This document shows positions 7,348-34,059 of a stretch of DNA of 40,335 nt, one piece after another. Below the pieces are notes generated by a model. That model was not told where the DNA came from and made no database searches. It was given only the letters and a program-made list of their open reading frames with translations. A program made the position numbers and the translations under genes. Position 1 is the first letter of the stretch; every line of letters starts with the position of its first letter. Source of the stretch: Candidatus Bathyarchaeota archaeon (GTDB lineage: Archaea > Thermoproteota > Bathyarchaeia > TCS64); the NCBI GenBank assembly GCA_016783485.1, contig JADHWM010000013.1, positions 1 through 40,335 on the forward strand, given 5' to 3'.

Positions 7348-7357
7348 CACATTCACC

Positions 7358-13394: not shown

Positions 13395-13678
13395 GCGACC
13401 TCTGGGATAAGTACGGATTGACGATCTCAGTCATCATCATGATCATGGGAGGTTTCATCACCTTCATGGGGAGCGATGCCCTGAGCTTCCCGGCCTTCGA
13501 GTACAGAGCCTCAGATGCTGGCCTGGTCCCTGCGGAGCCCTACGGCGAGATAGCCGAGCATGCTAGCCGCTTCCTCTGGGAGCACCGGGCCCTCGACCTC
13601 ACGGCCCAGGCCTTCGTCATCACGGCGGCGGTGATCTGCTGCCTGGCGCTTATCAAGCCCTCGGAGGTGGAGGCCTGA
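13391..13678 (+). CDS. Complex I subunit J, C-terminal half
   Basis: 95 residues with two helices (about 10-30 and 73-90) separated by a polar stretch. Its position directly after the N-terminal half of NuoJ, before NuoK and with 4-base overlaps on both sides, is how the second half of a split NuoJ appears in archaeal operons. Sequence conservation in this part of NuoJ is low, so the call rests mainly on context. Confidence 0.75.
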   Translation: MSDLWDKYGLTISVIIMIMGGFITFMGSDALSFPAFEYRASDAGLVPAEPYGEIAEHASRFLWEHRALDLTAQAFVITAAVICCLALIKPSEVEA

Positions 13679-13989
13679 TGATGCCCCTGGCTCCATTCGT
13701 CGCGACGACGGTCATCATGATCATCATAGGGCTGGGATGTCTCATGTTCAAGAGGGACATGGTCCGGCTCCTCATCGGGGTCGAGATACTCTTCAACGCG
13801 GCGAACCTGTTCTTCATCGCCCTCGCCACCCAGAGCCCGGGTATGATCGATCCTTTCGCCCACTCGGTGGTCATGATGGCCATCGTCCTGGACGGGACGG
13901 TGATCGCCGTCGGCCTCGCGATGGTGCTCAACGTCTACAAGCACTACAAGACTATCGACATCAGGAAGCTGAGGCGGTTGAAATGGTAG
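13678..13989 (+). CDS. nuoK: Complex I subunit K (NuoK/FpoK)
   Basis: 103 residues, three membrane helices. The family core LLIGVEILFNAANLFFIAL contains the conserved membrane Glu of helix 2, part of the proton-transfer path. Two consecutive ATG codons (13678, 13681) are possible starts; the first overlaps the nuoJ2 stop. The end overlaps the next gene by 7 bases. Confidence 0.95.
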   Translation: MMPLAPFVATTVIMIIIGLGCLMFKRDMVRLLIGVEILFNAANLFFIALATQSPGMIDPFAHSVVMMAIVLDGTVIAVGLAMVLNVYKHYKTIDIRKLRRLKW

Positions 13990-15503: not shown

Positions 15504-15571
15504 TGGTTTACGCAAACGCTATTAACTGGATGCTAAAAATGGTAGGAGATATGATGGGAGGTCTAGCGTGA
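15503..15571 (+). CDS. 22-residue micro-ORF coupled to nuoN and nuoL
   Basis: ATG 15503 overlaps the nuoN-like stop (TGATG), and the TGA stop at 15569-15571 overlaps the GTG start of nuoL. These are the same overlap styles used between the proven genes of this operon. The peptide begins MVYANAINWMLKMVGDMM and is amphipathic with four Met. It also contains the nuoL ribosome site GGGAGGT. It may be a tiny subunit, a leader that couples nuoL translation to nuoN, or chance. Confidence 0.35.
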   Translation: MVYANAINWMLKMVGDMMGGLA

Positions 15572-17844: not shown

Positions 17845-17845
17845 A

Positions 17846-19378: not shown

Positions 19379-19509
19379 TTTATTCAACTAATTTTCGGTC
19401 CCACTTCGACCCGTTGGAGCGTTGACTGGGGCGATTAATCCAAGAGGTCGCCCCTTCTTCGTCGATGTACACAAGTTTTTTTAGTCAAGTTAACGTGAGC
19501 TTCTAGGAC
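19379..19509 (+). promoter_or_regulatory. ATP synthase operon promoter region
   Basis: A 131-base spacer. The run gtttttttag at 19474-19483 is TATA-like and lies about 30 bases before the atpF ATG, giving a very short leader. The same T-run could end nuo transcripts. The spacer suggests that the ATPase genes have their own promoter. Confidence 0.45.
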
Positions 19510-19827
19510 ATGAGCGTCGCTGTCATTGGACCCCCCTCCTTTATCACCAGCTTCGAGCTGATCGGGGCAGCGGGCTTCGAGGGCAGCTCCGGGGAGGCCG
19601 TGGCGCAGACTTTGAACCGCCTCATCGACGAGGGCCGGTTCCAGCTCATAATAATTCCCGAGCGGTTCGCGGAGCAGACACGACCCGTCCGGGAGGCAGT
19701 CATGAGGAAGGGGGAGATCACACCTGTCTTCGCCCTCATCCCCGACTTCACGTTGGAGACCGGGATGAGAATGGAGGAGCTACAGGAAGTCGTCTCCTTA
19801 GCGATCGGGACCCGACTAGAGTTGTGA
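19510..19827 (+). CDS. atpF: A-type ATP synthase subunit F
   Basis: 105 residues. Subunit F binds the central stalk subunit D inside the A3B3 head. The family start SVAVIGPPSFITSFELIGAAG (a Rossmann-like beta-alpha unit, with the usual GD of VIGD replaced by GPP) and the LIIIPERFAEQTRPV segment are clear, as is PVFALIPDF toward the C-terminus. The ATG closely follows the promoter; atpH begins one base after the stop. In many archaea atpF sits directly before atpA; here two stalk genes intervene. Confidence 0.9.
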   Translation: MSVAVIGPPSFITSFELIGAAGFEGSSGEAVAQTLNRLIDEGRFQLIIIPERFAEQTRPVREAVMRKGEITPVFALIPDFTLETGMRMEELQEVVSLAIGTRLEL

Positions 19828-19828
19828 T

Positions 19829-20164
19829 ATGATGGGTATGGAAAGGGTATTATCAATCGGAGAGCGCCTCCAGAAGCTCCTGACCGACGCAGAAGCCGAG
19901 GCCAAGGCCAAGATCACCGAGGCCCAGAGCGCCGCCGACGAGAAGATCACGGCGGCCCAGAGGGAGGCTGCGAGGAAGAAGGCCATGGCCCAGAGGGGCA
20001 CCGGGATCGATGAGCTTCTCAAAGAGGAGGAGAAGAAAGCGGAGAAGGAGGCCAAGAAGATCCTGAAAGACTACGAGGCCAAGGCGGAGGCCCTCAAGGA
20101 CGTTCCAGAGGACAAGATGAAGGAGGCCATCGAGACAGTGATGAAGGAAGTGCTGCCTCAATGA
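19829..20164 (+). CDS. atpH: A-type ATP synthase peripheral stalk subunit H
   Basis: 111 residues, nearly all predicted coiled coil, rich in Ala, Lys and Glu (for example EAEAKAKITEAQSAADEKI). Subunit H pairs with subunit E to form the peripheral stalks that hold the head against rotation. The identification rests on composition, length and its place directly before atpE. ATG 19829, 19832 and 19838 are all possible starts. It overlaps atpE by 4 bases. Confidence 0.82.
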   Translation: MMGMERVLSIGERLQKLLTDAEAEAKAKITEAQSAADEKITAAQREAARKKAMAQRGTGIDELLKEEEKKAEKEAKKILKDYEAKAEALKDVPEDKMKEAIETVMKEVLPQ

Positions 20165-20805
20165 GCGAATCATCCATGGATCTCGAGGCCCAGCTCATCG
20201 AGAGGGTCATCGAGCAGAGGAACAAGCTCCTCGAGGACGCCGATAATGAGGTCGAAAAGATCGCAGAGTCGGCCGTGGAGGAAGTGGCCAGGATAAACGT
20301 CAACTCCGAGGCGGAGATCCTCAGCTTGATCGGCTCCGATCTCAACGCCGCGAGGGACAGGATCATCGGGAACGCCCAGCTAGAGGGCAGGAAGACCCTC
20401 CTGCTGGCCCGCCAGGCCCTCCTCACGGGGGTTTTCGACGAGGTTCTGGAGAGGCTCCGGGGCATCTCAAGGAGAGACGACGCTAACTTCGACAAGGGAG
20501 AGGTCCTCATAGCGCTCATCAAGGAGGCCGCCGCGGCGATCGGCGGAGAGGAGTTCATCATCTCTGGGAACGAGGCGGACCTCGAGTACCTGGGGAAGAA
20601 CCTCGGTAATATCAGCATGGCACTGGAACAATCTATAGGTGAGAGCAAAGTCAGCTTGGACTCGGAGCCCCTCGATATCGGCGGGGGAGTCGTTGTCAGG
20701 AACAGCGACGGGACCAAGACCTACTATAACACCTTCGAGGGGAGGCTTGCCAGTGTCAAGGCGAGGCTCGAGTCCGAGGTCGCCGAAAAGCTGGGGGTGC
20801 TATAG
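20161..20805 (+). CDS. atpE: A-type ATP synthase subunit E
   Basis: 214 residues: an N-terminal coiled coil (about 1-100) that pairs with subunit H and a C-terminal alpha/beta head that contacts subunit B. The family end is recognisable in the LDIGGGVVVRNSDGTKTYYNTFEGRL segment, written here across two phrases: GGGVVVRNSDG and YYNTFEGRL. ATG overlaps the atpH stop, and atpA begins directly after its stop. Confidence 0.92.
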   Translation: MSESSMDLEAQLIERVIEQRNKLLEDADNEVEKIAESAVEEVARINVNSEAEILSLIGSDLNAARDRIIGNAQLEGRKTLLLARQALLTGVFDEVLERLRGISRRDDANFDKGEVLIALIKEAAAAIGGEEFIISGNEADLEYLGKNLGNISMALEQSIGESKVSLDSEPLDIGGGVVVRNSDGTKTYYNTFEGRLASVKARLESEVAEKLGVL

Positions 20806-22572
20806 ATGTCTACAATTGTTGGTACAATCGAGAGGATTAACGGATCGCTCATCGTCGCCCACTTCGACGAGGCGCCCAAGATCGGCGACCTCACCGAGGT
20901 CGGGGACCTCAGGCTCATGGGCGAGATAGTCAGGCTCAGCGGGGAGACCGCGTACATCCAGTGCTTCGAGGCCACCAGCGGCCTCATGCCCGGGGAGCCG
21001 GTCACGGACCTCGGCGTCCCCCTCGTCGCCGAGCTGGGCCCCGGCCTCATGGGCCGGATCGTGGACGGGGTACAGAGGTCCGAGACGGAGCTCTGGGAGC
21101 TCACGGGACCCTTCGTCTCCAGGGGGACAAACATCGATCCCCTCAACAGGGGTGCGAAATGGAAATTTGAGGCCAAGGTGAAGCCCGGGGACAAGGTGGA
21201 AGGGGGAAACGTCATCGGAGTCGTCCAGGAGACGGTGTCCTTCGAGCACAGGGTGATGGTGCCCCCCGGTCAATCAGGGACGATCAAATCGATAAAGTCC
21301 GGGGAGTTCACCGTCGAGGACGTCATCGGGGAGCTCGAGACCAGCTCGGGCGTCGTGCCCCTGAAGATGATGCAGACCTGGCCGGTGCGGATACCCAGAC
21401 CCATCAAGGAGCGCCTCCCACTGGAGATGCCCCTCATGACGGGCCAGAGGGTCATCGACACATTCTTCCCTGTGGCGAAAGGCGGTGCAGTAGCAATCCC
21501 AGGTGGCTTCGGGACCGGCAAGACGGTCACCCTCCAACAGGTCGCCAAATGGTCCGACGCCGACATCATCATCTACATCGGGTGCGGGGAGCGGGGGAAC
21601 GAGATGGCAGACGTAGTCGCCCACTTCCCCGAACTCGAGGACCCCAGGAGCGGCAGGAAGCTCATCGAGAGGACGGTCATCATCGCGAACGTCTCCAACA
21701 TGCCCGTCTCCGCCAGGGAGGCCAGCATCTACATGGGGGTCACCATCGGCGAGTTCTACAGAGACATGGGATACGACGTCGCCATCATGGCCGACTCCAC
21801 ATCGAGGTGGGCCGAGGCTCTCAGAGACATCTCGGGGCGCCTCGAGGAGATCCCGGCCGAGGCCGGCTTCCCAGCCTACCTCTCAGACAGGATCGCCCAG
21901 ATCTACGAGAGGACCGGCAGGGGCGTCGTCATGGGCGAAGGCAGGACTCTGGGCAGCCTCACGCTCATCGGGGCCGTATCGCCCCCCGGCGGGGACTTTA
22001 GCGAGCCCGTAACCACCCACACCCTCAGGTTCATCGGGACCTTCTGGGCCCTAGACACCGACCTCGCCTACAGGCGCCACTTCCCGGCCATCAACTGGCT
22101 CAGGAGCTTCACGAGGTACATGGACGTCTCGGCCCGCTGGTGGTCGAAGCTTGACCCCGAATGGGAGGCGTCGAGATCCCAGGCCCTCAGGCTCCTGGAG
22201 GAGGCCTCGGAAGTCGAGGAGACCGCCAGGATCATCGGGGAGAAGGCGCTCCCCGACGAGCAGAGGCTCGTGCTGCTGCTGGCGGAGATGCTCAGGGAGG
22301 GCTTCCTCGTCCAGAGCGCTTTCCACGAAGTCGACACCTACTGCGAGGCCGAGAAGCAGACCGCCCTCCTTAAGGTGTTCATCGAGTTCTACAGCAAGGT
22401 GGACCCCCTCGTGAGGGCAGGTGTGCCCATCGAGATGGTGAGGAATATGGACGTCGTCACCGAGCTGATGCGTCTCAAGGAGAGGGCCGGAGTCGAGCCC
22501 ATCGAGGAGGCGAGCAAGGCGATCCTCGCGCAGAGGGACGCCCTCGCCGAGGAGTACGAGGTGAAGCTGTAA
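20806..22572 (+). CDS. atpA: A-type ATP synthase catalytic subunit A
   Basis: 588 residues, the usual length. The P-loop is GGFGTGKT at 233-240 (many archaea have GPFGSGKT), followed by [12 protein letters not shown] with the catalytic Glu, and [27 protein letters not shown] written here as [19 protein letters not shown]. The N-terminal non-homologous bulge typical of A and V types lies at about 110-190. It makes ATP in the head using rotation driven by the membrane part. The stop TAA overlaps the atpB ATG by one base. Confidence 0.97.
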
Positions 22573-23969
22573 TGGTAGTCGAACAATCAGGGCTGGTCTA
22601 CAGGACCACCAGCGAGATCAGGGGCCCCATCCTCATGGTGGAGGGGGTCAAGGGGGTCGCCTTCGACGAGATCGTGAACATCCGGAGGCCCAGCGGCGAG
22701 ATAGTCACCGGATCTGTGCTGGACGTCAGCAGAGACTGGGCCATGGTCCAGTGCTTCGGGGACACCAGCGGGATGGACCTCAATATCAGGGTCAGGTTCA
22801 CGGGAGAGACTCTCAAGGTACCCATGAGCGAGGAGCTCATCGGCAGGGTCTTCAGCGGCAGCTTCAAGCCCCTGGACGGCATCCCCGTCCCCCTGAGCAC
22901 CGACCTGAGGGACGTCAACGGCGGGATCATCAACCCCGCCGCCAGGGATGTCCCCAGTGAGTTCATCCAGACCGGGCTCAGCGCCATCGACGGTATGAAC
23001 AGCCTCGTCCGTGGCCAGAAGCTCCCCATCTTCAGCGAGTCGGGCCTCCCCCATAACATGATGGCTGCCCAGATCGCGCGGCAGGCCACCATCCCCGGCC
23101 AGGAGACCGACTTCGCAATCGTCTTCGGGGCCATGGGTATCAAGAACGAGGAGGCCGACTACTTCAGGGCGGAGTTCGAGAAGACAGGCGCCCTGAGCAA
23201 GTCGGTGCTGGTCCTCAACCTCGCAGATGACCCGCCCATCGAGCGTATCGTCACCCCCCGTATCGCCCAGACCATCGCCGAGTACCTCGCCTTCGACCTG
23301 GGGATGCACGTCCTCGTCATCCTCACCGACATGACCAACTACGCCGAAGCCCTCCGTACCATCAGCATCGCAAGGGAGGAGGTCCCCACCCGTAAGGGAT
23401 ATCCGGGCTACCTCTACAGCGACCTCGCCACCATCTACGAGAGGGCGGGCAGGATTCAGGGCCGACCGGGCTCTGTGACCCTGATGCCTATCCTCTCGAT
23501 GCCCGCGGGGGACAAGACCCACCCTGTCCCGGACCTCACGGGGTACATCACCGAGGGGCAGCTCATCCTGGAGAGGGAGCTCAGCCTCAGGGGAATCTAC
23601 CCCCCGATGAACCCCCTCCCGAGCCTCAGCAGGCTCATGAAGGACGGCATCGGCGAGGAGACCACCCGGGAGGACCACCAGGACGTCTCCAACCAGCTTT
23701 ACATGGCCTACGCCGAGGGCACGAGGGCCAGGGGCCTCGTCAGGATCGTCGGAGAGGTGGGTCTCAGCGACAGGGAGAGGACGTGGCTCCGGTTCGCCGA
23801 CCGCTTCGAGCAGGAGTTCGTGAACCAGGGCCCCTACGAGAACAGGTCCATCGAGCAGACCCTGAGCATCGCCTGGGACTTGCTCTCGATACTCCCCGAG
23901 GAGGACCTGATCCGCATCAGGGAGACCTACATCAACAAGTACCACCCAGCCCACAAGAGTGACAATTAG
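22572..23969 (+). CDS. atpB: A-type ATP synthase subunit B
   Basis: 465 residues. The non-catalytic partner of subunit A; it has no working P-loop, and the corresponding region reads [20 protein letters not shown], as in the family. Also seen: [20 protein letters not shown] and [19 protein letters not shown]. It alternates with A in the hexamer and binds the peripheral stalk. The stop overlaps the GTG of atpD. Confidence 0.97.
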
Positions 23970-24589
23970 TGTCCGCCACCACGGGAATCCGGCCCACAAA
24001 GGGCTTCCTCATGGAGATGAAGAGGCGGATAGGCTTCATCGAGAAGGGCACAGAGTTCCTGAAGCTGAAGAGGGACCACCTCGCCAAGGAGCTCACCTCC
24101 TCCATCGACGTCCTCAAGGGACGGAGGAGCAAGCTCCTCGAGGAGCTCCAAGTCGCCTACAGGGGCGTCACAGCCGCCTACATCAGCCTGGGCCCCACCG
24201 AGGTGAGGAGCCAGGCGAGCGCCCTCAAGAGCAGCCTCGAGATCGAGGTTCTCCCCAGGTCCACCATGGGGGTCAGATACCCCTTCATCAAGGTGGACAA
24301 GGAACCCCAGATCGCCGGGGAGCTCGACATCACCCTCAGCGAGGCTGCCGAGAAGGTCCTGGGGATCCTCAACGTCATCATACAGCTCGCCGAGTTCGAG
24401 TCGAGGGCCGAGAGGATCGCGGACGAGCTGGGGAAGACCAACAGGAAGGTTAACGCCCTGGAGAACACCATCATCCCCAGTTACAGGGGTATCATCAAGT
24501 TCATCGAGGACAAGCTCGACGAGGAGAGCCTGGAGGAGTTGGTCAGGATGAAACTCATCGGAGGTGCGCTGGCACGGCGACGAGGGTGA
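23969..24589 (+). CDS. atpD: A-type ATP synthase central stalk subunit D
   Basis: 206 residues, a long antiparallel coiled coil with a short globular middle, the rotor shaft. Family features are the N-terminal PTKGFLMEMKRRIGFIEKG and the C-terminal RRVNALENTIIP-like segment (here NRKVNALENTIIPSYRGII). The start is GTG, overlapping the atpB stop (TAGTG). It overlaps atpC by 4 bases (GTGA). Confidence 0.95.
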   Translation: MSATTGIRPTKGFLMEMKRRIGFIEKGTEFLKLKRDHLAKELTSSIDVLKGRRSKLLEELQVAYRGVTAAYISLGPTEVRSQASALKSSLEIEVLPRSTMGVRYPFIKVDKEPQIAGELDITLSEAAEKVLGILNVIIQLAEFESRAERIADELGKTNRKVNALENTIIPSYRGIIKFIEDKLDEESLEELVRMKLIGGALARRRG

Positions 24590-25620
24590 GCCCGGGCCTC
24601 TCCTACGTGGTCATCAAGAGTCACTCGCTGATGGCCGACCTTCTGACGCCGGAGCAGATGCGCGCCCTGGCCCAGCAGGAGACCTTGGAGCTCTTCGTGG
24701 AGCAGCTGGCTGGGACCTCGTACGGAAGGATATCCACGGAGACCGACGGCGACGTCTCCTTGGCCCTGGAGAAAGTCTTCTACCAAAAGTTCATCGAGCG
24801 GATGATGGGGATAGTGGATCTGGCACCGACGAACATCGGCGACTTCCTTCAGTCCTACTACTACCTGAGGTTCGAGGCCATCAACCTCAAGAGGATCGTC
24901 CGCGGAAAGTTCAGCGGCCTCCCGACCTCCAAGATTATCGATTTCCTGATACCGATAACGCCCTACAGGGTCGAGAGCTACGAGAAGATCGCGGGGGCGG
25001 AGACCTTACACGACGCCGTTAGGCAACTCGAGGGCACGCAGTATGAGCCCCTCGTCTCGAGCCTGGAGCTCTCAGAGAAGTACGACGCACTCTGGCCCGT
25101 CGAGATAGCCCTGAACTACCTCAGCGCCAGGGGGATCTTCAAGTCACTGGAGAGGCTCCCCCAGAGCGACAGGGGCCTGGTCCGGCGGATCGTACAGGCC
25201 GAGGCCGACGTCGAGAACTTCCTCGTCGCAGCGAAGCAGAGGGGCGCCCGCGAGAACGCCCACAGCCCCGAGGAGATGTTTCCCACGACCTACGATATAA
25301 GCCTCGATATGCTCAGGGAGGCAATGGAGACAGATGACCTCAGGGCCGTCATCCAAGGGCTCAACCCACCGTATAATGAAATCCTGACTCCCCTCTACGA
25401 GGGAGACGTAGCCCTAATCAGGAGCCGCCTCCGCCAGCATGTCTACGACATCGCCCGTAGGGGGCGCGCGGCGAACGATTTCGGGTTCAACGTCGTCATG
25501 GCGTATCTCGTCTTCAGCGAGATTGAGAAGAACGACCTCGTCGGCATCGCATGGGGGAAAACCCAGGGCATCGCGGCCGAAGATATGTTGAAGTATCTGA
25601 CTATCCCCAACTATCCCTGA
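24586..25620 (+). CDS. atpC: A-type ATP synthase subunit C
   Basis: 344 residues, all helical, the funnel-shaped subunit that couples the central shaft to the membrane ring. Conserved phrases are YYYLRFEAINLKRIVRGK and the NDFGFNVVMAYLVFSEIEKND segment near the end. The start is GTG overlapping atpD. It is the last gene of the plus-strand ATPase cluster; in many archaea atpC lies before atpF, so the order is rearranged here. Confidence 0.93.
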   Translation: MSPGLSYVVIKSHSLMADLLTPEQMRALAQQETLELFVEQLAGTSYGRISTETDGDVSLALEKVFYQKFIERMMGIVDLAPTNIGDFLQSYYYLRFEAINLKRIVRGKFSGLPTSKIIDFLIPITPYRVESYEKIAGAETLHDAVRQLEGTQYEPLVSSLELSEKYDALWPVEIALNYLSARGIFKSLERLPQSDRGLVRRIVQAEADVENFLVAAKQRGARENAHSPEEMFPTTYDISLDMLREAMETDDLRAVIQGLNPPYNEILTPLYEGDVALIRSRLRQHVYDIARRGRAANDFGFNVVMAYLVFSEIEKNDLVGIAWGKTQGIAAEDMLKYLTIPNYP

Positions 25621-25631
25621 GCCGTCATCCC

Positions 25632-25650
25632 GATTTTTGGGCTCTTTTCC
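25632..25650 (+). terminator. T-rich 3' end after atpC
   Basis: gatttttgggctcttttcc gives two short U-tracts just after the atpC stop, the usual form of archaeal termination. No hairpin is needed or evident. Confidence 0.35.
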
Positions 25651-25717
25651 ACTCAGGTGGATAAAACCATTATTGAATGATGAATATAATAATCGATGAC
25701 CTTCAGTAAGTGACTGT

Positions 25718-25730
25718 AAAAAAGAAAAAA
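25718..25730 (-). terminator. Oligo-U terminator after atpK
   Basis: On the minus strand the sequence 16 to 28 bases past the atpK stop is TTTTTTCTTTTTT, a strong archaeal-type terminator for the atpI-atpK side. Confidence 0.6.
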
Positions 25731-25745
25731 GGAGAGCCAGAAAGG

Positions 25746-26366
25746 CTAACCAATCAGTAGAATTGCCACGATCAATCCATAGATGGCTAGACCTTCGCCG
25801 AGGGCAACGAAGAGCAGAGACCAGATCGAGAGCTCCGGCTTCGCTATCAACATCTCGGAGCCCGACTTCACGGCCGTCATGATGCACAGGGCGGCCGCGA
25901 ATGCGGAACCGATCATAGTCAGAGCTCCCATCAGAAGCCCCCAAGCAGAATCAGGTATCATAACACTTTCACCTCCTCCACCGATCAATATGAAAATTAT
26001 GCTGAAGAAAATCACAACTGTCGTTATCTTCCCCCACGAGCCCAGGTTGTCCAGCGCCGCTATAATGGTCTTTTCATTCCCGCCGCCACCAGTGATCGAG
26101 ACCACTAGAATCAATCCCAAGATGATCATCACGCCCATGAGCAGAGTCAACATAGGAGAGACCGTATCCATCAACAGCATCTGCCCTCCAAGGAACCCGT
26201 AGAAGATGATCAAGACCCCTATAAGATTGAGGGAAACTCCCCAGACCGAGGCCCTGCCCTTCTCACCCGTCGTTGAAGCGTTTATGGTGGCGCCTTGAAC
26301 CATGCACCAAGCAGCAGCTATGATGGAAGCAGCAAACGTGATTGCCACAGGTATAAGGTCAGCCAT
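25746..26366 (-). CDS. atpK: A-type ATP synthase rotor ring subunit K (c)
   Basis: 206 residues from ATG 26366, chosen because GAGGT lies 7 bases upstream and a hydrophobic helix follows at once; upstream residues are polar. About six helices are visible, so the protein is larger than a one-hairpin c subunit (about 80 residues). The last hairpin is canonical: a Gly/Ala-rich helix and then SLLFVALGEGLAIYGLIVA with the ion-binding Glu191. The first hairpin keeps the IYG-like FYG but has Val51 at the Glu position, and the middle pair has no membrane carboxylate. One carboxylate per six helices would lower the ions moved per turn. It lies downstream of atpI. Confidence 0.88.
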   Translation of the reverse strand: MADLIPVAITFAASIIAAAWCMVQGATINASTTGEKGRASVWGVSLNLIGVLIIFYGFLGGQMLLMDTVSPMLTLLMGVMIILGLILVVSITGGGGNEKTIIAALDNLGSWGKITTVVIFFSIIFILIGGGGESVMIPDSAWGLLMGALTMIGSAFAAALCIMTAVKSGSEMLIAKPELSIWSLLFVALGEGLAIYGLIVAILLIG

Positions 26367-26403
26367 ATTCACAACCTCTGTGAAAGGCGCAGCATGTGAG
26401 AGA

Positions 26404-26412
26404 AATTTATTG
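26404..26412 (-). promoter_or_regulatory. Possible atpK promoter
   Basis: CAATAAATT on the minus strand, about 41 bases before the atpK ATG, is TATA-like and would leave a leader of about 16 bases that includes GAGGT. The 144-base gap after atpI and this element suggest that atpK can be expressed separately, as is useful for a subunit needed in many copies. An inverted pair CTCTGTGAAA (26376-26385) and TTTCACAGAG (26473-26482) flanks it. Confidence 0.35.
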
Positions 26413-26510
26413 ACGTCATTTGTTACTTTCCACCTTTTTCTCGTTACAATGCCCAAATCAGAATATAACTCTTTTCACAGAGTGTAATGAATAAAAAAGG
26501 GATATTCAGG

Positions 26511-28445
26511 TCAGGATTTGTTTATCCTGAACCTGTATGGTCTGAACGGCACTCCGCCTCCGTGATAGAACTTGCCCATGAACTCGTAGTAGAGCAGTCT
26601 CAGGGACTGTACGCCGCTCGACATGAACTCGAAGCTCATCGCGATGAGGTTCATCAGGATGAGGCTTGGGATAGTTCCCATGAAACCGGACAGCTGGTGA
26701 GCCGCGCCTGCCAGGCTGGCGTGGGCGAGTGCGAAGGCGACGATACGGAGGAAGGAGAAGAGGTTGGCGAGCCCCTCGACGAAGGTCATGAGGAGCGCTC
26801 CCACTCCCTCGCCGACTACCTCTATGCCGAAATGTCCTCCCGCCACGGCGGCGATGATGGGCTCCATCATTGCGAGGAACATCCCGCCCAGCATGACGTA
26901 GAAGCCCCAGTAGCCCATGGTGCCCATGAAGTCGCTGGTCCTGATGAACTCGAACACGGACAGGGACAGTCCCAAGACGTAGAGTATCATGCCGAGGCCG
27001 TGCATCCCGAGGACGCCCCACTTGTGCCCCGCCTTCCACTGGTTGATGGCGCCGAGGACGAGGCCGAATATGATCTCGACCGTAGCGATCTTGAACACCC
27101 ACTTCATCAGCGTCGTCGTCTCGTGGATGGGGTTCGGCATGAACTGGTTATGGTGGAACAGGAGCCCCTCCACGAGGAAGATCGAGTCGTAGCCTATGCC
27201 GAAGAGTATGGCGAATATACCCATGGGTATGAAGAGCGTCCCCAGCTTCGACATCATGCCCCGCTTGTACTTCCGGGAAACTAGTAGCCCTGCAATTAAG
27301 AATATAGCCCCCTGCCCTATGTCGCCGTACATGAGGCCGAATTGAAAGCTGAAGACGAGGATCGTGATGTACATCGGGTTAATCTCGTTGGCTGCTGGCC
27401 ATCCGCGGAGGGAGGTCAGTTTCCAAGCAGGCTGAAGGAACGAGGGCATCTTCGGTTCGGGAGTAGGGATTGAATGGTCATCGTGCCCGGGGTCCTCGTA
27501 CTCCAGGTAGAACAGTTCCCCCGTCTTCTCCTGCAGATCGTTTATGACCTTATCCAGTGTGTGCACATTATCTTCGTGAATCCATCCTTGGATGACGCTG
27601 ATCACATTCGTCCTGAGGACGGGGACCGATTCGTCGGACAGTATCCTGAGCATCTGGTCCAGGAACTTGGCGTTTCCCAGCACGGGGGAGTACTCCGCCT
27701 TTATCTGCCCGTACTCAGCCTCGCCCTCTGTCAGGGCTTGGAGCTCCTGGGCCTCTTGCTCGTACTCCTTTATGACTTCCTCACGCCTCCCGGCATCGAT
27801 CGACAGGAGGATGTCCTGTGTGTTGAGCACCTCGAAGATGTCCTTCACTTCGAATATGAGGAAGATGGTCTCGACCCACTCCCTCCTCTCCTCGGGGCCG
27901 AAAACGAAGACGTACCCCTTATCAGATGAAAACTCGACTACCTTCGAGCTTAAATCCTCGAACCTCTCGAGGTACTCATTCAGGCGTTGTTGGATGCTGA
28001 GATCGGCCAACCCCACTGTGAGGCACTTCTTCAGCTCCTCCGGTTCGAGCGCCTTCAGGCTCTCCAACCGCAGCTTTGTCTCTACAAGCTTCTTTTCTCC
28101 CTCTTCCCGCCTTGCGTCGACTTCCTTTATTTTCTCCTGAACTTCTCGGAATTTGGCGAGAAAATCATCCACTGTTGCCGCTGGATCTTCGGTGAACTCC
28201 CTCAACTCATCAGTTTCGAGATCCATGTCTTCCAGTTCGAGTATAGTTGATTCTTCAAGGGCCTTGTATTCGTCTTGGAATTTCTCGTAGAGGCCCTTGA
28301 AATCTACGATCCTCTCCCCGGTCTTCCTCAGCCGTTCAACATCCACACCGCCCACGGCCTTCAGCTGGGCAACTCTCGCCACACCTAGTTCTCTAGTAAT
28401 CTGGTGCTCGTACTCCGGGGGAGTAATGATCGTGAACTTCTTCAT
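26511..28445 (-). CDS. atpI: A-type ATP synthase subunit I (a)
   Basis: 644 residues from ATG 28445 (a TTG at 28448 is the only alternative). The N-terminal half (about 1-330) is a soluble, coiled-coil-rich arm that binds the peripheral stalks; the C-terminal half has about eight membrane helices forming the ion half-channels. The key Arg lies in SGVQSLRLLYYEFMGKFYHG near the end, with HASLAGAAHQLSG just before. It is transcribed toward atpK and against the other ATPase genes; in most archaea I and K precede E-C-F-A-B-D on the same strand. Confidence 0.95.
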   Translation of the reverse strand: MKKFTIITPPEYEHQITRELGVARVAQLKAVGGVDVERLRKTGERIVDFKGLYEKFQDEYKALEESTILELEDMDLETDELREFTEDPAATVDDFLAKFREVQEKIKEVDARREEGEKKLVETKLRLESLKALEPEELKKCLTVGLADLSIQQRLNEYLERFEDLSSKVVEFSSDKGYVFVFGPEERREWVETIFLIFEVKDIFEVLNTQDILLSIDAGRREEVIKEYEQEAQELQALTEGEAEYGQIKAEYSPVLGNAKFLDQMLRILSDESVPVLRTNVISVIQGWIHEDNVHTLDKVINDLQEKTGELFYLEYEDPGHDDHSIPTPEPKMPSFLQPAWKLTSLRGWPAANEINPMYITILVFSFQFGLMYGDIGQGAIFLIAGLLVSRKYKRGMMSKLGTLFIPMGIFAILFGIGYDSIFLVEGLLFHHNQFMPNPIHETTTLMKWVFKIATVEIIFGLVLGAINQWKAGHKWGVLGMHGLGMILYVLGLSLSVFEFIRTSDFMGTMGYWGFYVMLGGMFLAMMEPIIAAVAGGHFGIEVVGEGVGALLMTFVEGLANLFSFLRIVAFALAHASLAGAAHQLSGFMGTIPSLILMNLIAMSFEFMSSGVQSLRLLYYEFMGKFYHGGGVPFRPYRFRINKS

Positions 28446-28456
28446 CAAGATGAATC

Positions 28457-28486
28457 AATATCAAACCCTTCGTTTGATATTAAAGT
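28457..28486 (-). promoter_or_regulatory. atpI promoter with perfect inverted repeat
   Basis: AATATCAAAC-CCTTC-GTTTGATATT at 28457-28481 is a perfect 10-bp inverted repeat with a 5-base centre. Its distal arm overlaps the minus-strand TATA-like CTTTAATATC (28477-28486), and its proximal arm lies near the expected transcription start, about 20 bases before the atpI ATG. A bound regulator here would block the promoter; alternatively it folds as an mRNA leader hairpin. Confidence 0.5.
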
Positions 28487-28589
28487 TTTTTTAGTTGACA
28501 TCTCCTCTAATTTCCGCTCTGGTAAAAACGGCGCCGTCACTGCATGAATAAAGATCGTAGACGGACGGTAAAACGCCACACTATTTGGT

Positions 28590-28808
28590 TTATAAAACGT
28601 CGATTTTTTTCTTGATCCATCGAACTAGGAGCACGTACTGGAGCATTAATAAGAAGATTATCGGTAGTGCAGTCCCTATCATGTGTGGGAACCTCCAATA
28701 TATGAGGAGCATCGAGATTCCCATACCCACAACGGGCAGCATGAGGACGGCTAACAACAGGTTTCTCTTCTGCTTTATCGCCTCTACGTGGTTGGTGTCG
28801 CCACTCAT
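28590..28808 (-). CDS. Small two-helix membrane protein
   Basis: 72 residues from ATG 28808; an ATG at 28826 lies only about 12 bases from the TATA element and is less likely to be transcribed. Two membrane helices (about 16-36 and 44-64) are joined by the short polar turn YWRFPHM, and the C-terminus is basic (RWIKKKIDVL). No known family is recognised. Two damaged relatives of it occur at 31296-31420 and 32217-32410, so it belongs to a small local family. It is preceded by the CBS and AsnC-type genes on the same strand but has its own TATA box. Confidence 0.7.
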   Translation of the reverse strand: MSGDTNHVEAIKQKRNLLLAVLMLPVVGMGISMLLIYWRFPHMIGTALPIIFLLMLQYVLLVRWIKKKIDVL

Positions 28809-28825
28809 TTCCACTGAAGCTCCCA

Positions 28826-28842
28826 TACACGTGTAAATAAAT
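28826..28842 (-). promoter_or_regulatory. Promoter with TACACGTGTA palindrome
   Basis: TTTATTTA on the minus strand (28835-28842) is a good TATA box for the two-helix protein, and the perfect 10-bp palindrome TACACGTGTA (28826-28835) touches its downstream edge, between TATA and the expected start near 28813. That is a classic archaeal repressor site position. The regulator is unknown. Confidence 0.45.
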
Positions 28843-28861
28843 GATGTGCTCGGCTCATCGA

Positions 28862-29299
28862 CTACTCGCGCCTGCGTAGTAGTGAGCTGAAAGATCCAAT
28901 AGAGGCTATGGAGATGCCTCTAGTGACGTCACGCTCGGACACGACTCCCTCGAGGGCGTCTCCATCCATGACCACCAGCTGCGTGATCGAGTGCTCCCTC
29001 ATCTTCCTCATCGCCTCGAGGATGTTGACGTCCTTACCGATGGTTATCAGCGGCTTCGACATGATGTCCTTGACCTTTATCTCGCAGGGGTCCAAGCACA
29101 GCGCTACGAGCTTGCGGATGATGTCGCGTTTGGTTACGATTCCGACAGGCGCCCCCCTCTCGACGACGATGACGCTCCCGATATCCTTTCCCGCCATCAG
29201 GAGGGCCGCGTCCCTTACGTTGACCTCCGCGTCCACTGTGATTGCGGGGGAGGCCATGATGTCCGAGGCGACGGAGGGGAACTTCTCCAGCTTTCTCAC
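28862..29299 (-). CDS. Two-CBS-domain protein
   Basis: 145 residues made of two CBS repeats: about 13-67 (DIMASPAITVDAEVNVRDAA ... GIVTKRDIIRK) and 77-132 (DIMSKPLITIGKDVNILEAM ... GVVSERDVTRG). Such pairs form a Bateman module that binds adenine nucleotides or similar ligands and reports energy state. No catalytic or DNA-binding domain is attached, so it probably acts on a partner. The start is GTG, one base after the stop of the AsnC-type gene, so the two are co-translated and may act together. Confidence 0.9.
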   Translation of the reverse strand: MRKLEKFPSVASDIMASPAITVDAEVNVRDAALLMAGKDIGSVIVVERGAPVGIVTKRDIIRKLVALCLDPCEIKVKDIMSKPLITIGKDVNILEAMRKMREHSITQLVVMDGDALEGVVSERDVTRGISIASIGSFSSLLRRRE

Positions 29300-29300
29300 C

Positions 29301-29558
29301 TCATCCCTTTACCATATCCTTAGGCCTGGCCTCCAGGAGGGTTGTCGTGGAGGCGACACCGGATATCGTCCTGAGCTTGTTGAAAACGAAGTTGTCCAGG
29401 TCCCCCAGCGATTCAGACCCGACCTTGATGATCAGGTCGTACTCGCCGTAGGTGATGATGACATCTTTGACCTCACCGAAGGTCTGGACAGTCTCGTAGA
29501 CCTCCTTGTCCTGTGCCGGGTGCACCCGGATCAATGTATAACTGATCAACATCTTCAT
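29301..29558 (-). CDS. Stand-alone AsnC/Lrp ligand-binding (RAM) domain
   Basis: 85 residues that match only the C-terminal ligand-binding and oligomerising domain of Lrp/AsnC regulators: a beta-alpha-beta-beta-alpha-beta fold beginning SYTLIRVHPAQDKEVYETVQ, then the GEYDLIIKVG core and a final strand with TTTLLEARP. There is no helix-turn-helix, so it cannot bind DNA by itself. Such proteins form mixed oligomers with full-length relatives or sense small molecules. It leads a two-gene unit with the CBS protein. Confidence 0.88.
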   Translation of the reverse strand: MKMLISYTLIRVHPAQDKEVYETVQTFGEVKDVIITYGEYDLIIKVGSESLGDLDNFVFNKLRTISGVASTTTLLEARPKDMVKG

Positions 29559-29641
29559 ATCCTCTGATCCTTTGTTTTCTTAAATCTTTGTTGATGGTTG
29601 ATGAATAAAAAGGGGTAGGAGGCAATCCCCTATACCTGGCT

Positions 29642-29920
29642 CTATCCTGCTAGGCTCTTTATGGTCGCGGTGATCTCTTGGAGCCCCAGCTTGTCCAGCG
29701 TCGAGTAGGTCTCCTCCGCGTCCACCATTAGAGAGGCCTCCATAAGCGTCGTTAGCCCGGTCACCGTCGCAAGTTGGTCCTGACGCCACAGGTAGATTAC
29801 CTTCTTCGCCAACTCGGCAGGGACGGCGTTCTTGTCCTTGGTACTAAGCACTATGTTCACAAGGTTCTTTGACAGGTCCCCGAGCAACGAACTGGGTATG
29901 TTCTCAACAGCTTTCTCCAT
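29642..29920 (-). CDS. Unknown 92-residue helical protein
   Basis: 92 residues, predicted all-helical, with no membrane segment and no Cys. It runs from MEKAVENIPSSLLGDLSKNL to LGLQEITATIKSLAG. A TATA-like ATATATACA at 29954-29963 would start transcription near 29932, leaving a short leader. Codon use matches the neighbours, which supports a real gene. I do not recognise the family; a small regulatory or scaffold protein is only a guess. Confidence 0.65.
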   Translation of the reverse strand: MEKAVENIPSSLLGDLSKNLVNIVLSTKDKNAVPAELAKKVIYLWRQDQLATVTGLTTLMEASLMVDAEETYSTLDKLGLQEITATIKSLAG

Positions 29921-30248
29921 ATCTCTAAACCTAAATTATGAAGTACTTACTGTGTATATATGAGAATCCTTAAAGAAAGCATAGAAAAACCCCTAAAAAC
30001 TAAAGAAATCAAGAGTAACATAAACGGAAATTGAAAAAAGAATTATGGTTTTTCGCCATTCTTGTATATTGATGTTAATAACTTGTTTCTGTGTAATTTA
30101 ATTTGATTTTAAAATGTTAATTAATTTAGGTCCTAGATTTTTGTTAAAATGCTATGTGTTTTTCTTTATTGATCTTTGTGTTTTCTTTAATTTTACTGTT
30201 GAAACTGGAAACCTTTTATAGTTTTCTAAGATCTTCTATCTGAGTGAT
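29921..30248. other. AT-rich spacer with two divergent promoters
   Basis: About 330 bases, very AT-rich, between the 92-residue gene (-) and the AsnC regulator (+). It holds a promoter at each edge. I see no ORF of note and no recognisable RNA gene in the middle. Confidence 0.5.
30213..30221 (+). promoter_or_regulatory. AsnC regulator promoter
   Basis: cttttatag with a purine-rich GAAACTGGAAA just upstream looks like a BRE-TATA pair. Transcription would begin near 30241, so the mRNA of the gene starting at 30249 would have a leader of only a few bases. Confidence 0.5.
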
Positions 30249-30695
30249 ATGTCTCTGGACATTCTAGATATGCAGGTCATAAAGTGCCTCACGGAGGACG
30301 GGAGGAGCACCTACCGAGAAATGGCCGAGGAGACCGGGGTCAGCGAGGCCACCGTCAAGAACCGGATAGACAAACTCATCGAGACCGGTGTAATAAAGAA
30401 GTTCACTGTGATGCTCGACTACCACCATCTGGGTCGGGCTATTAAGTCCTTCATAGGCCTGAAGGTGCTGCCCGCCAAGATCCAGGAGATCGTAGAACAC
30501 ATGAAGGCCCATCCCGACGTTTTTGTCCTCTACAGGACAAGTGGCGACGTGGACCTATTGTTCGAGGTGATCTTCGAGAAGATGGAGGATCTGAACGAGT
30601 TCCTGGAGACGGAGCTCGCACTTGACGGGATACTGGGGACCGTCGTCACCATCGTGATAGGGCCCTACAAGCGGTGCCCCTGGACGGGGCTCTAG
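30249..30695 (+). CDS. Lrp/AsnC family transcription regulator
   Basis: 148 residues: N-terminal helix-turn-helix (about 3-50: DILDMQVIKCLTEDGRSTYR, then the recognition helix VSEATVKNRIDKLIE) and a C-terminal RAM domain (about 62-140). These proteins form dimers and octamers and regulate amino-acid or energy metabolism genes, often including themselves. It could oligomerise with the DNA-binding-deficient RAM protein encoded 0.7 kb away; that is inference. Its 3' end overlaps the next, convergent gene by 4 bases. Confidence 0.92.
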   Translation: MSLDILDMQVIKCLTEDGRSTYREMAEETGVSEATVKNRIDKLIETGVIKKFTVMLDYHHLGRAIKSFIGLKVLPAKIQEIVEHMKAHPDVFVLYRTSGDVDLLFEVIFEKMEDLNEFLETELALDGILGTVVTIVIGPYKRCPWTGL

Positions 30696-31228
30696 CGCCA
30701 GGCGCCGAGCTTCGACTCGCCTGCGATGAAGACTATCAGCCCCTCCACCTTTGTGTGGTGCTCCTCCAGCTCCACGTTGAACATTGTCTCCAGGTAACCC
30801 CTCAGGTAGTTGGTGGGGACGGCGGAATACTCCACCTTGATCTCGTTCCCGACCTTGGTGAAGACCCCCCAACCCAAGTTCTCCAGCTCCTTCAGCACGA
30901 TCATCCAGTTGCCCGGCTTCGTAAGGTCGATGTCCCTGTACTCGGGCTTCAGGACCTTCCTCTTCATCGCTGTCATGTATCCACTTCTGTGTGTCTCCGA
31001 GTCAGTCAGCAGCTCGAAGAGGTCTAGGAGCATCCCTCTGTCCATGAGGATGATGCGGCTCTCACCTATCCTGTAGATGTCCGGCAGCCAGTCGTGCATG
31101 GAGAGCTTCTTGAACAGTATGAGGGCCTTCCTGACGGCTTCGTCCTTACTCTTTATGAACCTGGTTCTCTCGAGGAACTCGAGGTAGTTGTAAGTGTCGT
31201 CGTCTATCTCAAGAGTGATGGTCTTCAC
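30692..31228 (-). CDS. Ribbon-helix-helix-like protein with unknown C-terminal domain
   Basis: 178 residues. The first 45 (MKTITLEIDDDTYNYLEFLE, then a helix with SKDEAVRKALILFKKL) fit a ribbon-helix-helix DNA-binding fold. The rest is an alpha/beta domain that I do not recognise; it contains GNWMIVLKELENLGWGVFTK and an acidic, His-containing strand region (NVELEEHHTKVEGLIVFI). The start is GTG with GGGGATG upstream, and a TATA-like GTAATTTAC lies about 35 bases before it. A ligand-sensing repressor is the natural reading but is not shown. Confidence 0.7.
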   Translation of the reverse strand: MKTITLEIDDDTYNYLEFLERTRFIKSKDEAVRKALILFKKLSMHDWLPDIYRIGESRIILMDRGMLLDLFELLTDSETHRSGYMTAMKRKVLKPEYRDIDLTKPGNWMIVLKELENLGWGVFTKVGNEIKVEYSAVPTNYLRGYLETMFNVELEEHHTKVEGLIVFIAGESKLGAWR

Positions 31229-31295
31229 ATGGCATCCCCAATAAGAGTATGCAGGGCTGTAAATTACTTCCTGTTCCTTGCTGCGGATGGCCCGA

Positions 31296-31566
31296 CTAGC
31301 TGACCTGTTTCTCCAGCATGGCGTCTATATTGTCGTTGATCCACTTGACGAGGAGCAGGTACTGCGCCATGATTACGACGATTATGGGGATGGCTATCAG
31401 AACATTTGTATCCCTCTCGACGCCCTCGACCTTCCTAGGGTCCCGGTAGGTGGGGAAGTACATCATCCTGTATGGGTCGTCGTTTAGGTTGGTCAGGGGC
31501 TAGCTCCTCTCCGTACTTGTAGGCTGTGAGGTAGACGACTTTTGCGTCCTTGAAGGCCTCAGCCAT
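31296..31566 (-). pseudogene. Chimeric pseudogene: split-barrel start, two-helix end
   Basis: The upstream part reads MAEAFKDAKVVYLTAYKYGEE and then, after a one-base frame change near 31500, LTNLNDDPYRMMYFPTYRDP and RKVEGVERDTNVLIAIP; this follows the intact split-barrel protein at 32498-32908 (FKEARMVYLTTFRDGEE ... KVEDIKEDPKVLITFP). It then runs into PIIVVIMAQYLLLVKWINDN and ID, which follows the end of the two-helix protein at 28590-28808 (PIIFLLMLQYVLLVRWIKKKID). The switch falls inside VLIAIP, which both parents resemble. The frame change and missing domains make it a pseudogene. Confidence 0.65.
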
Positions 31567-31606
31567 GCCTCTATCGAATTTATTGGCATCAGAAACTTTC
31601 CACGAT

Positions 31607-31616
31607 ATTATATAAT
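31607..31616. promoter_or_regulatory. Palindromic TATA, zinc-ribbon gene and pseudogene
   Basis: ATTATATAAT is a symmetrical TATA box. On the plus strand it would serve the zinc-ribbon gene (start near 31672); on the minus strand it points to the chimeric pseudogene, whose split-barrel parent has a comparable promoter distance. Confidence 0.45.
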
Positions 31617-31671
31617 GTTGTGTCAGGACCCAAAGAGTTATCCTCGGTTGAGTCCCACCAAAACTGCAGAG

Positions 31672-31851
31672 ATGTCAGGGAAGTCTTGTGCCGTCTGCGG
31701 AAAAATTCTGGACGATACCGAGATCAGGATCAACGAACGAAAACTCGGCTCCAGGAGGACGAATCCCCGGTATCTCTGCAGAGAGTGCCGTAAGAAGGAA
31801 TACAACAACTACACGGAATCGATACAGAGAGTGATTGATAAAAAGTTGTAA
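31672..31851 (+). CDS. Small zinc-ribbon protein
   Basis: 59 residues from ATG 31672; an in-frame TTG at 31648 is possible. Two CX2C pairs are separated by about 30 residues: CAVCGKIL near the start and CRECRKKEY toward the end, with a basic middle (ERKLGSRRTNPRY). This is a treble-clef or zinc-ribbon of the kind found in archaeal nucleic-acid-binding and ribosome-associated proteins. The specific function is unknown. Confidence 0.65.
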   Translation: MSGKSCAVCGKILDDTEIRINERKLGSRRTNPRYLCRECRKKEYNNYTESIQRVIDKKL

Positions 31852-31863
31852 GATCTATTGCTT

Positions 31864-32410
31864 CTAGGGTAGTGGGCTCTCACTATGTACGGTCGCGTTG
31901 ATGATTGCCTCATCGCCCATCTCCATCGCAGGTCTCAGCGTCTCCTCGAGCCCCCGCAGCCTGTTCCTGAGGGTGACCTCTGTGGTCCCCGCGGCGGAGG
32001 CGACGTCCTTCTGGATCTTCTTGTCGTCCATCTCGATGCAGGCCATGTAGAGGGCCGCGGCTGCGATCCCCCTCGGATCTTTACCTGACAGGCCTTTCCT
32101 CTCCTTCGCCCTTCTGAGTATGTCGACTGCGTGCCTCTCGGTGGTCGGCCTCACATGGAGCTTGGAGGCGATGCCCGAGACGAACTTCATGGGGTCGTCG
32201 ATGGGCATCTTGGGTGAGGTAGTCGATTCCCTTGATCATGAAGATAAGATGGTGACGGTGTATTGGACAATGAGGAAGAAGGTCATCGCGACTACGATGA
32301 GCATGTTCTTGGGGGCCCTCCAGATAACGATGGGTATTACTGCGACCATGCCGATTGCGGGCATCATGAGCACCGCGATGAAGACTTATTTGTGCTTTTG
32401 AAGCCTTCAA
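31864..32410 (-). pseudogene. Chimeric pseudogene: two-helix protein joined to TFB C-terminus
   Basis: The upstream part (32390-32217) encodes VFIAVLMMPAIGMVAVIPIV, WRAPKN and a second helix ending VQYTV, a damaged relative of the two-helix protein at 28590-28808; at least two frame changes are needed, and the C-terminal MIKGIDYLTQ is in another frame. At 32212 it changes abruptly to the last cyclin repeat of TFB (MPIDDPMKFVSGIASKLHVR). Bases 31958-32212 match 33113-33367 of the intact TFB gene with about 14 differences in 255 and no indel by hand count. The 114-codon TFB part (ATG 32208) is still open and could be translated, with its own diverged tail. Confidence 0.7.
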
Positions 32411-32497
32411 AGAAAACGGCGGGCGCGCTCATCCCTAGCTATGCTCCAGGGGCCATTAAACGGGGAACCCGAAAAAAATTGGTCCATGAAGGAGGGG

Positions 32498-32908
32498 CTA
32501 AGTCTTTTTCACCAGTCTGGCGGAAACTGGGTTCACGTTTATGATGGCTCTCTCCGGAGTCATGGCACCCCCGGGCATCCAGAACCTCAATTTCTGGGAG
32601 GGGTGCCAGTAGAGATACCACCACCTCCACTTCCTGGCGGTGGCTTCCTCGTCGGCGAGCTCCGCCCTCCCGGTGATCTCGTAGTAATCCCCTTTGTTCT
32701 GGGCGGGGAAGGTGATCAGGACTTTGGGATCCTCCTTTATGTCCTCGACCTTCCTGCTCTTCATTTCCGAGGGGAACCAGATCACATCATATGGGTCCCC
32801 GTTGAAGTTGGTCATCTGCCTGCTCCTCTCCTCCCCGTCCCGGAAGGTGGTGAGGTAGACCATCCTGGCCTCCTTGAAGCTCTCAACCAATCCCTCGATC
32901 TCACGCAT
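32498..32908 (-). CDS. Pyridoxamine-oxidase-like split-barrel protein
   Basis: 136 residues of the FMN-binding split-barrel (general stress protein 26-like) superfamily. Seen: the opening helix and strand ESFKEARMVYLTTFRDGEER, a flavin-edge strand YDVIWFPSEMKSRKVEDIKE, VLITFPAQNKGDYYEITGRA, and an aromatic C-terminal helix (RKWRWWYLYWHP). Members bind FMN or F420 and reduce small molecules; the substrate here is unknown. A CTATAAAATC TATA box lies at 32939-32948 and GGTGG precedes the ATG by 6 bases. A broken partial copy lies at 31296-31566. Confidence 0.8.
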   Translation of the reverse strand: MREIEGLVESFKEARMVYLTTFRDGEERSRQMTNFNGDPYDVIWFPSEMKSRKVEDIKEDPKVLITFPAQNKGDYYEITGRAELADEEATARKWRWWYLYWHPSQKLRFWMPGGAMTPERAIINVNPVSARLVKKT

Positions 32909-33002: not shown

Positions 33003-33034
33003 AAAAATAAAGAGACAGAGGGGGCTATTGCCCC
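33003..33034 (-). terminator. Hairpin and U-tract after TFB gene
   Basis: On the minus strand GGGGC-AATA-GCCCC (33021-33034) spans the TFB stop codon and is followed by a T-rich run with TTTATTTTT. This resembles a hairpin-plus-U-tract 3' end. Confidence 0.45.
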
Positions 33035-33981
33035 GGGGATGGCACGGCTGGCGCCACCGGTATGTCCTCGGTGACGGCGACCGGCTCCCGTAAAACGGCC
33101 TCTAGGCCCTTGAGCCTGTTCCTGAGGGTGACCTCGGTGGTCCCCGCGGCGGAGGCGACGTCCTTCTGGATCTTCTTGTCGTCCATCTCGATGCAGGCCA
33201 TGTAGAGGGCCGCGGCTGCGATACCCCTCGGATCCTTCCCTGACAGGCCCTTCCTCTCCCTGGCCCGCTTCAATATGTCGACTGCGTACCTCTCGGTAGT
33301 CGGCCTCACATGGAGCTTGGAGGCGATGCCCGAGACGAACTTCATGGGGTCGTCGATGGGCATCTTGAGCTTGAGCTCCCTGTGGAGCAGCCTGTAGGAC
33401 CGGGAGACCTCGGAGTGCTCCCGGGTGCTGACCTTGGAGATCTCCTTGAGGGGCCTGGGCACCTTGCGCCTCCTGCAGGCGGCGTACAAGCTGGCGGCGA
33501 CGAAGGCATCGATAGAGCGACCCCGGATCAGGTCGGCCTTCAGAGCCTGACGGTAGATGAAAGCGGCGCTCTCCTTCACCATCTTGGGTATCGAGAGGAC
33601 CGTCGAGAGCCTGTCGAGCTCGGCCATGGCGATGCTCAGGTTCCTGCCCCAGGTCTCGTCGAGCTTCGACCGTGTGTCGTACCGCTTCAGCTTATTCATC
33701 ATGTTCCTGGTGTCGACGTTGAGCTTGTTTCCCCTGGCGTCCCTGCTTCCCTTGAAGCTGGTGGAGAGACCCATGTCATATAGGGTGTAGGACCTCGCCA
33801 TGCCGACCCTCGGCCGGTTCGCCCTCTCGGCGCTGGTGAAGGCCCTCCACTCGGGCCCGGTGTCGATGATCTCGTCGTTCAGCACTAGACCGCATTGACC
33901 GCAGACCTCCTCTCCAGCGTCTGGATCTACGATTATGTTTGTGCTTCCGCACTTTGTGCAGCTTCTTGTGTTCGTTTCCAT
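33025..33981 (-). CDS. tfb: Transcription initiation factor B (TFB)
   Basis: 318 residues from ATG 33981, chosen because GGTGA lies 6 bases upstream; the frame extends to a TTG at 34026. TFB binds TBP-TATA and the BRE and recruits RNA polymerase. The N-terminal zinc ribbon has Cys8, 11, 27 and 30 (CTKCGSTN ... CGQCGL). The B-finger region is GPEWRAFTSAERANRPRVG, followed by two cyclin repeats (about 100-200 and 205-300; the first with SIDAFVAASLYAACRRRKVP, the second with DPRGIAAAALYMACIEMDDK). A short Pro-rich tail ends in PSPGQ. The second repeat is duplicated in the pseudogene 0.9 kb away. Confidence 0.96.
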   Translation of the reverse strand: METNTRSCTKCGSTNIIVDPDAGEEVCGQCGLVLNDEIIDTGPEWRAFTSAERANRPRVGMARSYTLYDMGLSTSFKGSRDARGNKLNVDTRNMMNKLKRYDTRSKLDETWGRNLSIAMAELDRLSTVLSIPKMVKESAAFIYRQALKADLIRGRSIDAFVAASLYAACRRRKVPRPLKEISKVSTREHSEVSRSYRLLHRELKLKMPIDDPMKFVSGIASKLHVRPTTERYAVDILKRARERKGLSGKDPRGIAAAALYMACIEMDDKKIQKDVASAAGTTEVTLRNRLKGLEAVLREPVAVTEDIPVAPAVPSPGQ

Positions 33982-34059
33982 TTTTTCACCTTCCCCATCG
34001 TTTGAGACAGGTTTTTGTTTGTCCAAAAGATGGGTGATATGGATATTTTACCCATACGT

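Follow-up and report, generated by a model that had tools for sequence, protein, structure and literature searches.

The 3' piece of a TFB gene that lies beside an intact TFB gene in this Bathyarchaeia contig is best read, at a probability of about 0.8, as the scar of a chromosomal recombination between genera, in which the end of a foreign TFB gene came to rest at the edge of an imported segment. The original prediction had taken the piece for a duplicate of the neighboring TFB gene; its tail, its collinearity with another genus, phylogenetic trees, and AU tests instead identify it as the 3' end of a sister-genus TFB gene.

The window, i.e., the whole stretch of DNA analyzed (40,335 nt), is a complete contig (C115) of the metagenome-assembled Bathyarchaeia draft genome G000, which comprises 116 contigs and is 70% complete. 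The comparisons draw on G002 and G003, which belong to the same genus as the window, on G001, and on G006, a Bathyarchaeia genome from another genus (g3). DUF178 and p92 are working names for proteins of 178 and 92 aa and are not Pfam names. The features on which the argument turns are as follows.

24001..32212, no strand: stretch of sister-genus ancestry up to the fragment; identity to G006 is for the most part 84-89%, that to G003 for the most part 66-77%
about 31303..31600, minus strand: flavin/two-helix chimera pseudogene with an in-frame stop and an internal deletion of about 0.4 kb
31615..31851, plus strand: small Zn-binding-protein gene, foreign (G006-type), convergent with the fragment and 84% identical to the G006 protein
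31864..32212, minus strand: 3' fragment of a TFB gene of foreign (G006-type) origin, with the second cyclin repeat and the C-terminal tail
31958..32212, minus strand: 255-base block common to the fragment and the intact TFB gene, with 14 differences, a mosaic of native-type and G006-type patches
32212..32213, no strand: junction of the native two-helix 3' end with the foreign TFB, without long homology
32213..32480, minus strand: native two-helix membrane-protein pseudogene with two frameshifts, its 3' end lost
32498..32908, minus strand: native PNPOx-like flavin-protein gene, 136 aa, intact
33025..34026, minus strand: intact native TFB gene (the listed open reading frame), with a C-terminal tail unlike that of the fragment
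33099..33367, minus strand: the intact TFB gene's copy of the shared block, as aligned to the fragment

Ancestry Changes at the Fragment

We computed an identity profile of the window against G006, G003, G002, and G001 in 1-kb steps. Over 24-32 kb, up to the fragment, most steps show 84-89% identity to G006 and 66-77% to G003, while from 33099 (33 kb in the profile) rightward identity to G006 is 65-76%, compared with 93% to G002 (89-95% by step) and 70-86% to G001 and G003. Alignment places the change to the base: window positions 11636-31399 and 31386-32212 show collinearity with G006, at an identity of 82.8%, which ends exactly at the fragment's first base. Near its right end it is interrupted solely by the deletion in the chimera; to the left it reaches about 11.6 kb, with mosaic ancestry along the way. 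Protein trees on the two sides are opposed. For AsnC and DUF178, G000 and G002 group with G006 (support 95/92 and 100/99, respectively), while the tree of the first 205 residues of TFB places the same two genomes with G003 (100/99). AU tests on groups that were named after the trees had been seen reject the opposite groupings, with p = 0.0009 for AsnC plus p92 and p = 0.0004 for TFB. Profile, trees, and tests thus agree that the ancestry of the flank changes at the fragment. The same switch is present in G002 on an independently assembled 445-kb contig, and it is therefore not an artifact of the window's own contig.

Farther to the left the profile is uneven. Between 15 and 19 kb the window is 93-95% identical to G002 and 84-90% to G006, between 20 and 24 kb G003 is closest (78-86%), and over 19-28 kb identity to G002 falls to 68-85%. 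The mosaic ancestry in 15000-28000 suggests that several segments may have been exchanged. A single clean import would accordingly be a simplification, ancestry at 15-24 kb being itself mosaic.

The Shared TFB Block Is a Mosaic

The fragment and the intact gene share the block much as originally described: alignment of 31958-32212 to 33113-33367 gives exactly 14 differences (about 14 had been predicted) and no indel. The match extends beyond these 255 bases to 269 bases with 19 differences, a similarity far above chance (E = 4.5e-112), and the sharp loss of similarity at CAAGATGCCC, on the left edge, is likewise borne out. What had not been noticed is that the fragment's tail beyond the block is unrelated to that of the intact TFB gene. 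This tail, EETLRPAMEMGDEAIINAT, matches G006 (EETLGLAMDLGDEAIVNAT) and G002 and not the intact copy. Within the match, the fragment carries the G006 base at 13 of the 19 differences and the intact copy does so at 4 of the 19, and each of the block's four amino-acid differences (H26, R32, K35, and R85) shows the G006 residue in the fragment.

These types are not evenly spread. Counted along the block, the fragment is native-type at positions 1-69 and 134-255 and G006-type at 80-133 and from 256 on; its differences from the intact copy are clustered (p = 0.007), and the longest clean run is also longer than expected (p = 0.011). In the native-type patch 134-255 the two copies differ at two sites, and at both the fragment has the base of G002 and G003, so that this patch is not an assembler's collapse of the two copies. 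Native-type patches in a foreign fragment point to gene conversion from the intact copy, since they are what such conversion would leave; they require either conversion or a more complex history. In the intact TFB gene, possible foreign bases occupy 3 of the block's 9 informative sites, compared with 3 of 13 outside it, so that transfer from the fragment to the intact gene is indistinguishable from background. Of the earlier suggestion that the fragment serves as a recombination donor, what stands is a probable exchange in the opposite direction, from the intact gene to the fragment.

The two-copy arrangement of fragment plus intact TFB is known from one metagenome-assembled contig only. Reads of co-occurring strains bearing two kinds of locus could have been merged there, as may happen in a draft genome of this kind, and strain mixing could also yield a mosaic TFB block. 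We nevertheless regard an assembly artifact as unlikely: the ancestry switch itself recurs on the separate G002 contig, no long shared word on which an assembler could have slipped was found at the 32212 junction, and patch 134-255 carries the G002/G003 base precisely where it departs from the intact copy. No exact match to the junction sequence was found among viral contigs. Integration of a small mobile element of the Campbell type or at an attachment site was considered and dropped, since the 1.15 kb between the two TFB copies contain no integrase and hold only native genes of the family.

Three Gene Families Meet at the Junction

As predicted, the TFB repeat sits behind a broken two-helix gene: the gene directly upstream carries two frameshifts. 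The native two-helix gene and its upstream region align with an intact gene of G003 (L023 7050-7325) at the corresponding place behind TFB. The neighboring flavin/two-helix chimera is also real, and with it the claim that three local gene families were recombined at one place. The chimera consists of the N-terminal part of a foreign flavin gene and the C-terminal part of a foreign two-helix gene, joined within a short imperfect repeat. Its pieces are 86% (flavin) and 91% (two-helix) identical to G006, while the flavin piece is only about 71% identical to the native flavin copy. We read it as a separate deletion of 0.4 kb that would have occurred within imported copies of the same genes.

In this family the usual gene order is TFB, Zn, flavin, two-helix, DUF178, AsnC, p92, which is complete in G008 and G006 and has suffered losses elsewhere. 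The window holds two half-sets, the first (34 kb down to 32.2 kb) with TFB, flavin, and the broken two-helix gene and the second with the TFB fragment, Zn, the flavin/two-helix chimera, DUF178, AsnC, and p92. The family-wide order would explain both. Such an arrangement could also have arisen by local tandem duplication, if a TFB-Zn-flavin-two-helix block had doubled within the lineage and the halves had decayed unequally into the fragment and the chimera; the two half-sets do keep the same order, and identity between the TFB blocks is 93%. This was our first model, drawn from the family gene order, and it was dropped because the second set of flavin and two-helix pieces proved G006-like. The flavin copies are too far apart for a recent duplication, the second being closer to G006 than to the first, the tails of the two TFB copies come from different lineages, and ancestry changes over the whole flank rather than over the duplicated genes alone. 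We therefore hold duplication to be very unlikely. Because the native two-helix gene aligns with G003 and the chimera pieces are G006-like, the second half-set did not arise by recent copying of the first; the two would descend from the ancestral family set by different routes.

Two further genes of these families were noted. Window positions 28590-28826 hold an intact member of the two-helix family (78 aa) that is conserved in G002 and G006, and G003 has a decayed DUF178 remnant with several stops at the syntenic place (L023, about 5986-6330).

A Proposed Order of Events

The ancestry switch at the fragment, the frameshifts, the deletion, and the presence of both types of TFB tail are direct observations; the order of events, the direction of transfer, the conversion, the loop-out, and the fragment's lack of function are what we infer. 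In this scenario the ancestor of the window species and of G002 would have taken up part of the chromosome of a relative resembling G006. The import would have started inside the donor TFB gene, at the start of the second cyclin repeat, and continued through the donor Zn, flavin, two-helix, DUF178, AsnC, and p92 genes. The native two-helix gene would have followed the native TFB and flavin genes, and the imported TFB end would have been attached at its 3' end. The native TFB gene would have been kept whole, and the foreign one would have remained as a headless 3' piece. Later, short tracts would have been exchanged between the two TFB copies by gene conversion, the native two-helix gene would have picked up frameshifts, and about 0.4 kb would have been deleted from the foreign flavin/two-helix pair to give the chimera. 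The direction of transfer is suggested by the window having both types and G006 one. Degeneration is visible in each of the redundant copies: the fragment has a +2 frameshift ahead of its stop, the native two-helix gene is frameshifted twice, and the chimera has an in-frame stop plus the deletion.

G002 has one TFB gene in this place, native to about block position 265 and foreign after 270, followed by the foreign Zn gene. Such a gene would result if the window's two 269-base copies underwent a crossover, which would remove exactly the native tail, the flavin gene, and the two-helix gene. The G002 hybrid is thus probably a loop-out, in which the two repeats would have recombined with loss of the 1.15 kb between them, giving a native body with a foreign tail. 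The reverse order, with the hybrid first and the window state later, would by itself leave the fragment's G006-type patch 80-133, which is missing in G002, unexplained. Between the Zn and DUF178 genes, where the window has the chimera, G002 carries a SAM methyltransferase-like gene (L024, about 7224-7940).

The Fragment Is Most Likely a Relic

The 114-codon frame at 31864-32208 is open, as had been stated, and the one TFIIB/cyclin repeat that it contains is complete, covering positions 5-91 of the 92 in the Pfam model PF00382 (E = 3.5e-17). Aligned with the solved archaeal TFB structures 1ais and 1d3u, it falls on their second repeat. The intact TFB gene has two PF00382 stretches to the fragment's one, and a zinc ribbon (PF08271, E = 8.5e-17) that is absent from the fragment. 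The nominal start of the fragment's frame is an internal Met at 32208, and a 2-base insertion shifts the frame in the last codons, which run past the normal stop. The intact gene likely starts at an ATG near 33981, behind GGTGA.

Judging from known TFB structures, a second repeat on its own might be able to bind TBP and the BRE. The fragment could on this basis compete at promoters, as a dominant-negative or modulating partial TFB; its frame is open, its repeat is complete, and it matches the TBP- and DNA-binding part of the protein. Truncated TFBs can indeed act, as in Sulfolobus, where TFB3 competes with TFB1 for RNA polymerase (PMC2246294). Against this, TFB3 retains the opposite part of the protein, and by eye there is no Shine-Dalgarno-like or TATA-like sequence at the fragment's nominal ATG, where expression may yet be leaderless or by read-through; the intact gene has its GGTGA. 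The C-terminus is frameshifted, and an open frame is expected by chance, with a probability of 0.78 after 10 random substitutions. The amino-acid changes were inherited from the donor and are uninformative about selection on the fragment as such. No lone TFB piece away from a contig end was found in the other genomes of the family; single-repeat pieces in G014, G021, G024, and G026 were rejected as parallels because they lie a few bases from contig ends. The dominant partial TFB that had been proposed thus finds no support here, and we judge a working partial TFB highly improbable. Scarcely any credence attaches to an expressed lone repeat that tunes promoter use by occupying TBP and BRE while recruiting no RNA polymerase, or to a donor cassette kept so that the working TFB can alternate between a native and a foreign C-terminal end. 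The fragment is most likely a nonfunctional relic, and we take it to have no role beyond that of a gene-conversion partner.

Comparison with Known Systems

Homologous replacement of chromosome segments occurs between related genera and can leave partial gene copies at the edge. The window resembles such cases in that flanking ancestry changes at a conserved gene and a partial gene lies at the edge. It differs in that the join is between a two-helix gene and the middle of TFB, not a clean crossover in a shared gene, and for that reason native and foreign ends lie side by side. Compared with archaeal TFB (TFIIB, PF00382), the fragment likewise has the second cyclin repeat, including the helix-turn-helix, and the C-terminal tail; it is without the zinc ribbon, the B-reader/linker region, and the first cyclin repeat, and no start signal of its own is visible by eye. 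Sulfolobus TFB3, too, is a TFB-related gene of less than full length. This truncated protein, which acts after DNA damage, keeps the zinc ribbon and is without the BRE-binding helix-turn-helix and the B-finger (PMC2246294); the fragment is the reverse part of the protein and shows no sign of use. Paralogous archaeal genes are described as undergoing gene conversion, an example being mtrA, of which some methanogens have two copies (PMC4632066). The likeness is a tract-wise homogenization of two gene copies at one locus, and the difference is that one copy here is a headless foreign piece rather than a working ancient paralogue.

In this locus an exchange of chromosome between genera of uncultured Bathyarchaeia seems to have been caught midway, with native and foreign TFB ends adjacent, and the hybrid TFB of the sister species G002 is the apparent end product. 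These findings suggest that chromosome segments can be exchanged between genera at TFB, a gene that is conserved along with its neighborhood, and that a basal factor can have its C-terminal tail replaced in this manner. Literature searches returned no paper on TFB exchange in Bathyarchaeia. The fragment is probably ordinary as a functional element and is useful mainly as a record of DNA exchange among these archaea: the locus is a real and unusually legible recombination scar, an informative snapshot of an ordinary kind of event and not a new functional element.

Other TFB Genes of the Family

Genomes of the family have up to 10 TFB matches each, and G002 holds two further TFB genes in tandem (G002:C10:16485-18563, partly in locus L020). 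The TFB gene of G001 (L025 9590-10537) has a tail that resembles the G006 type; its identity to G006 is 83.1% in the second-repeat block and 76.5% in the rest of the gene, values hinting at what may be another exchange inside TFB.
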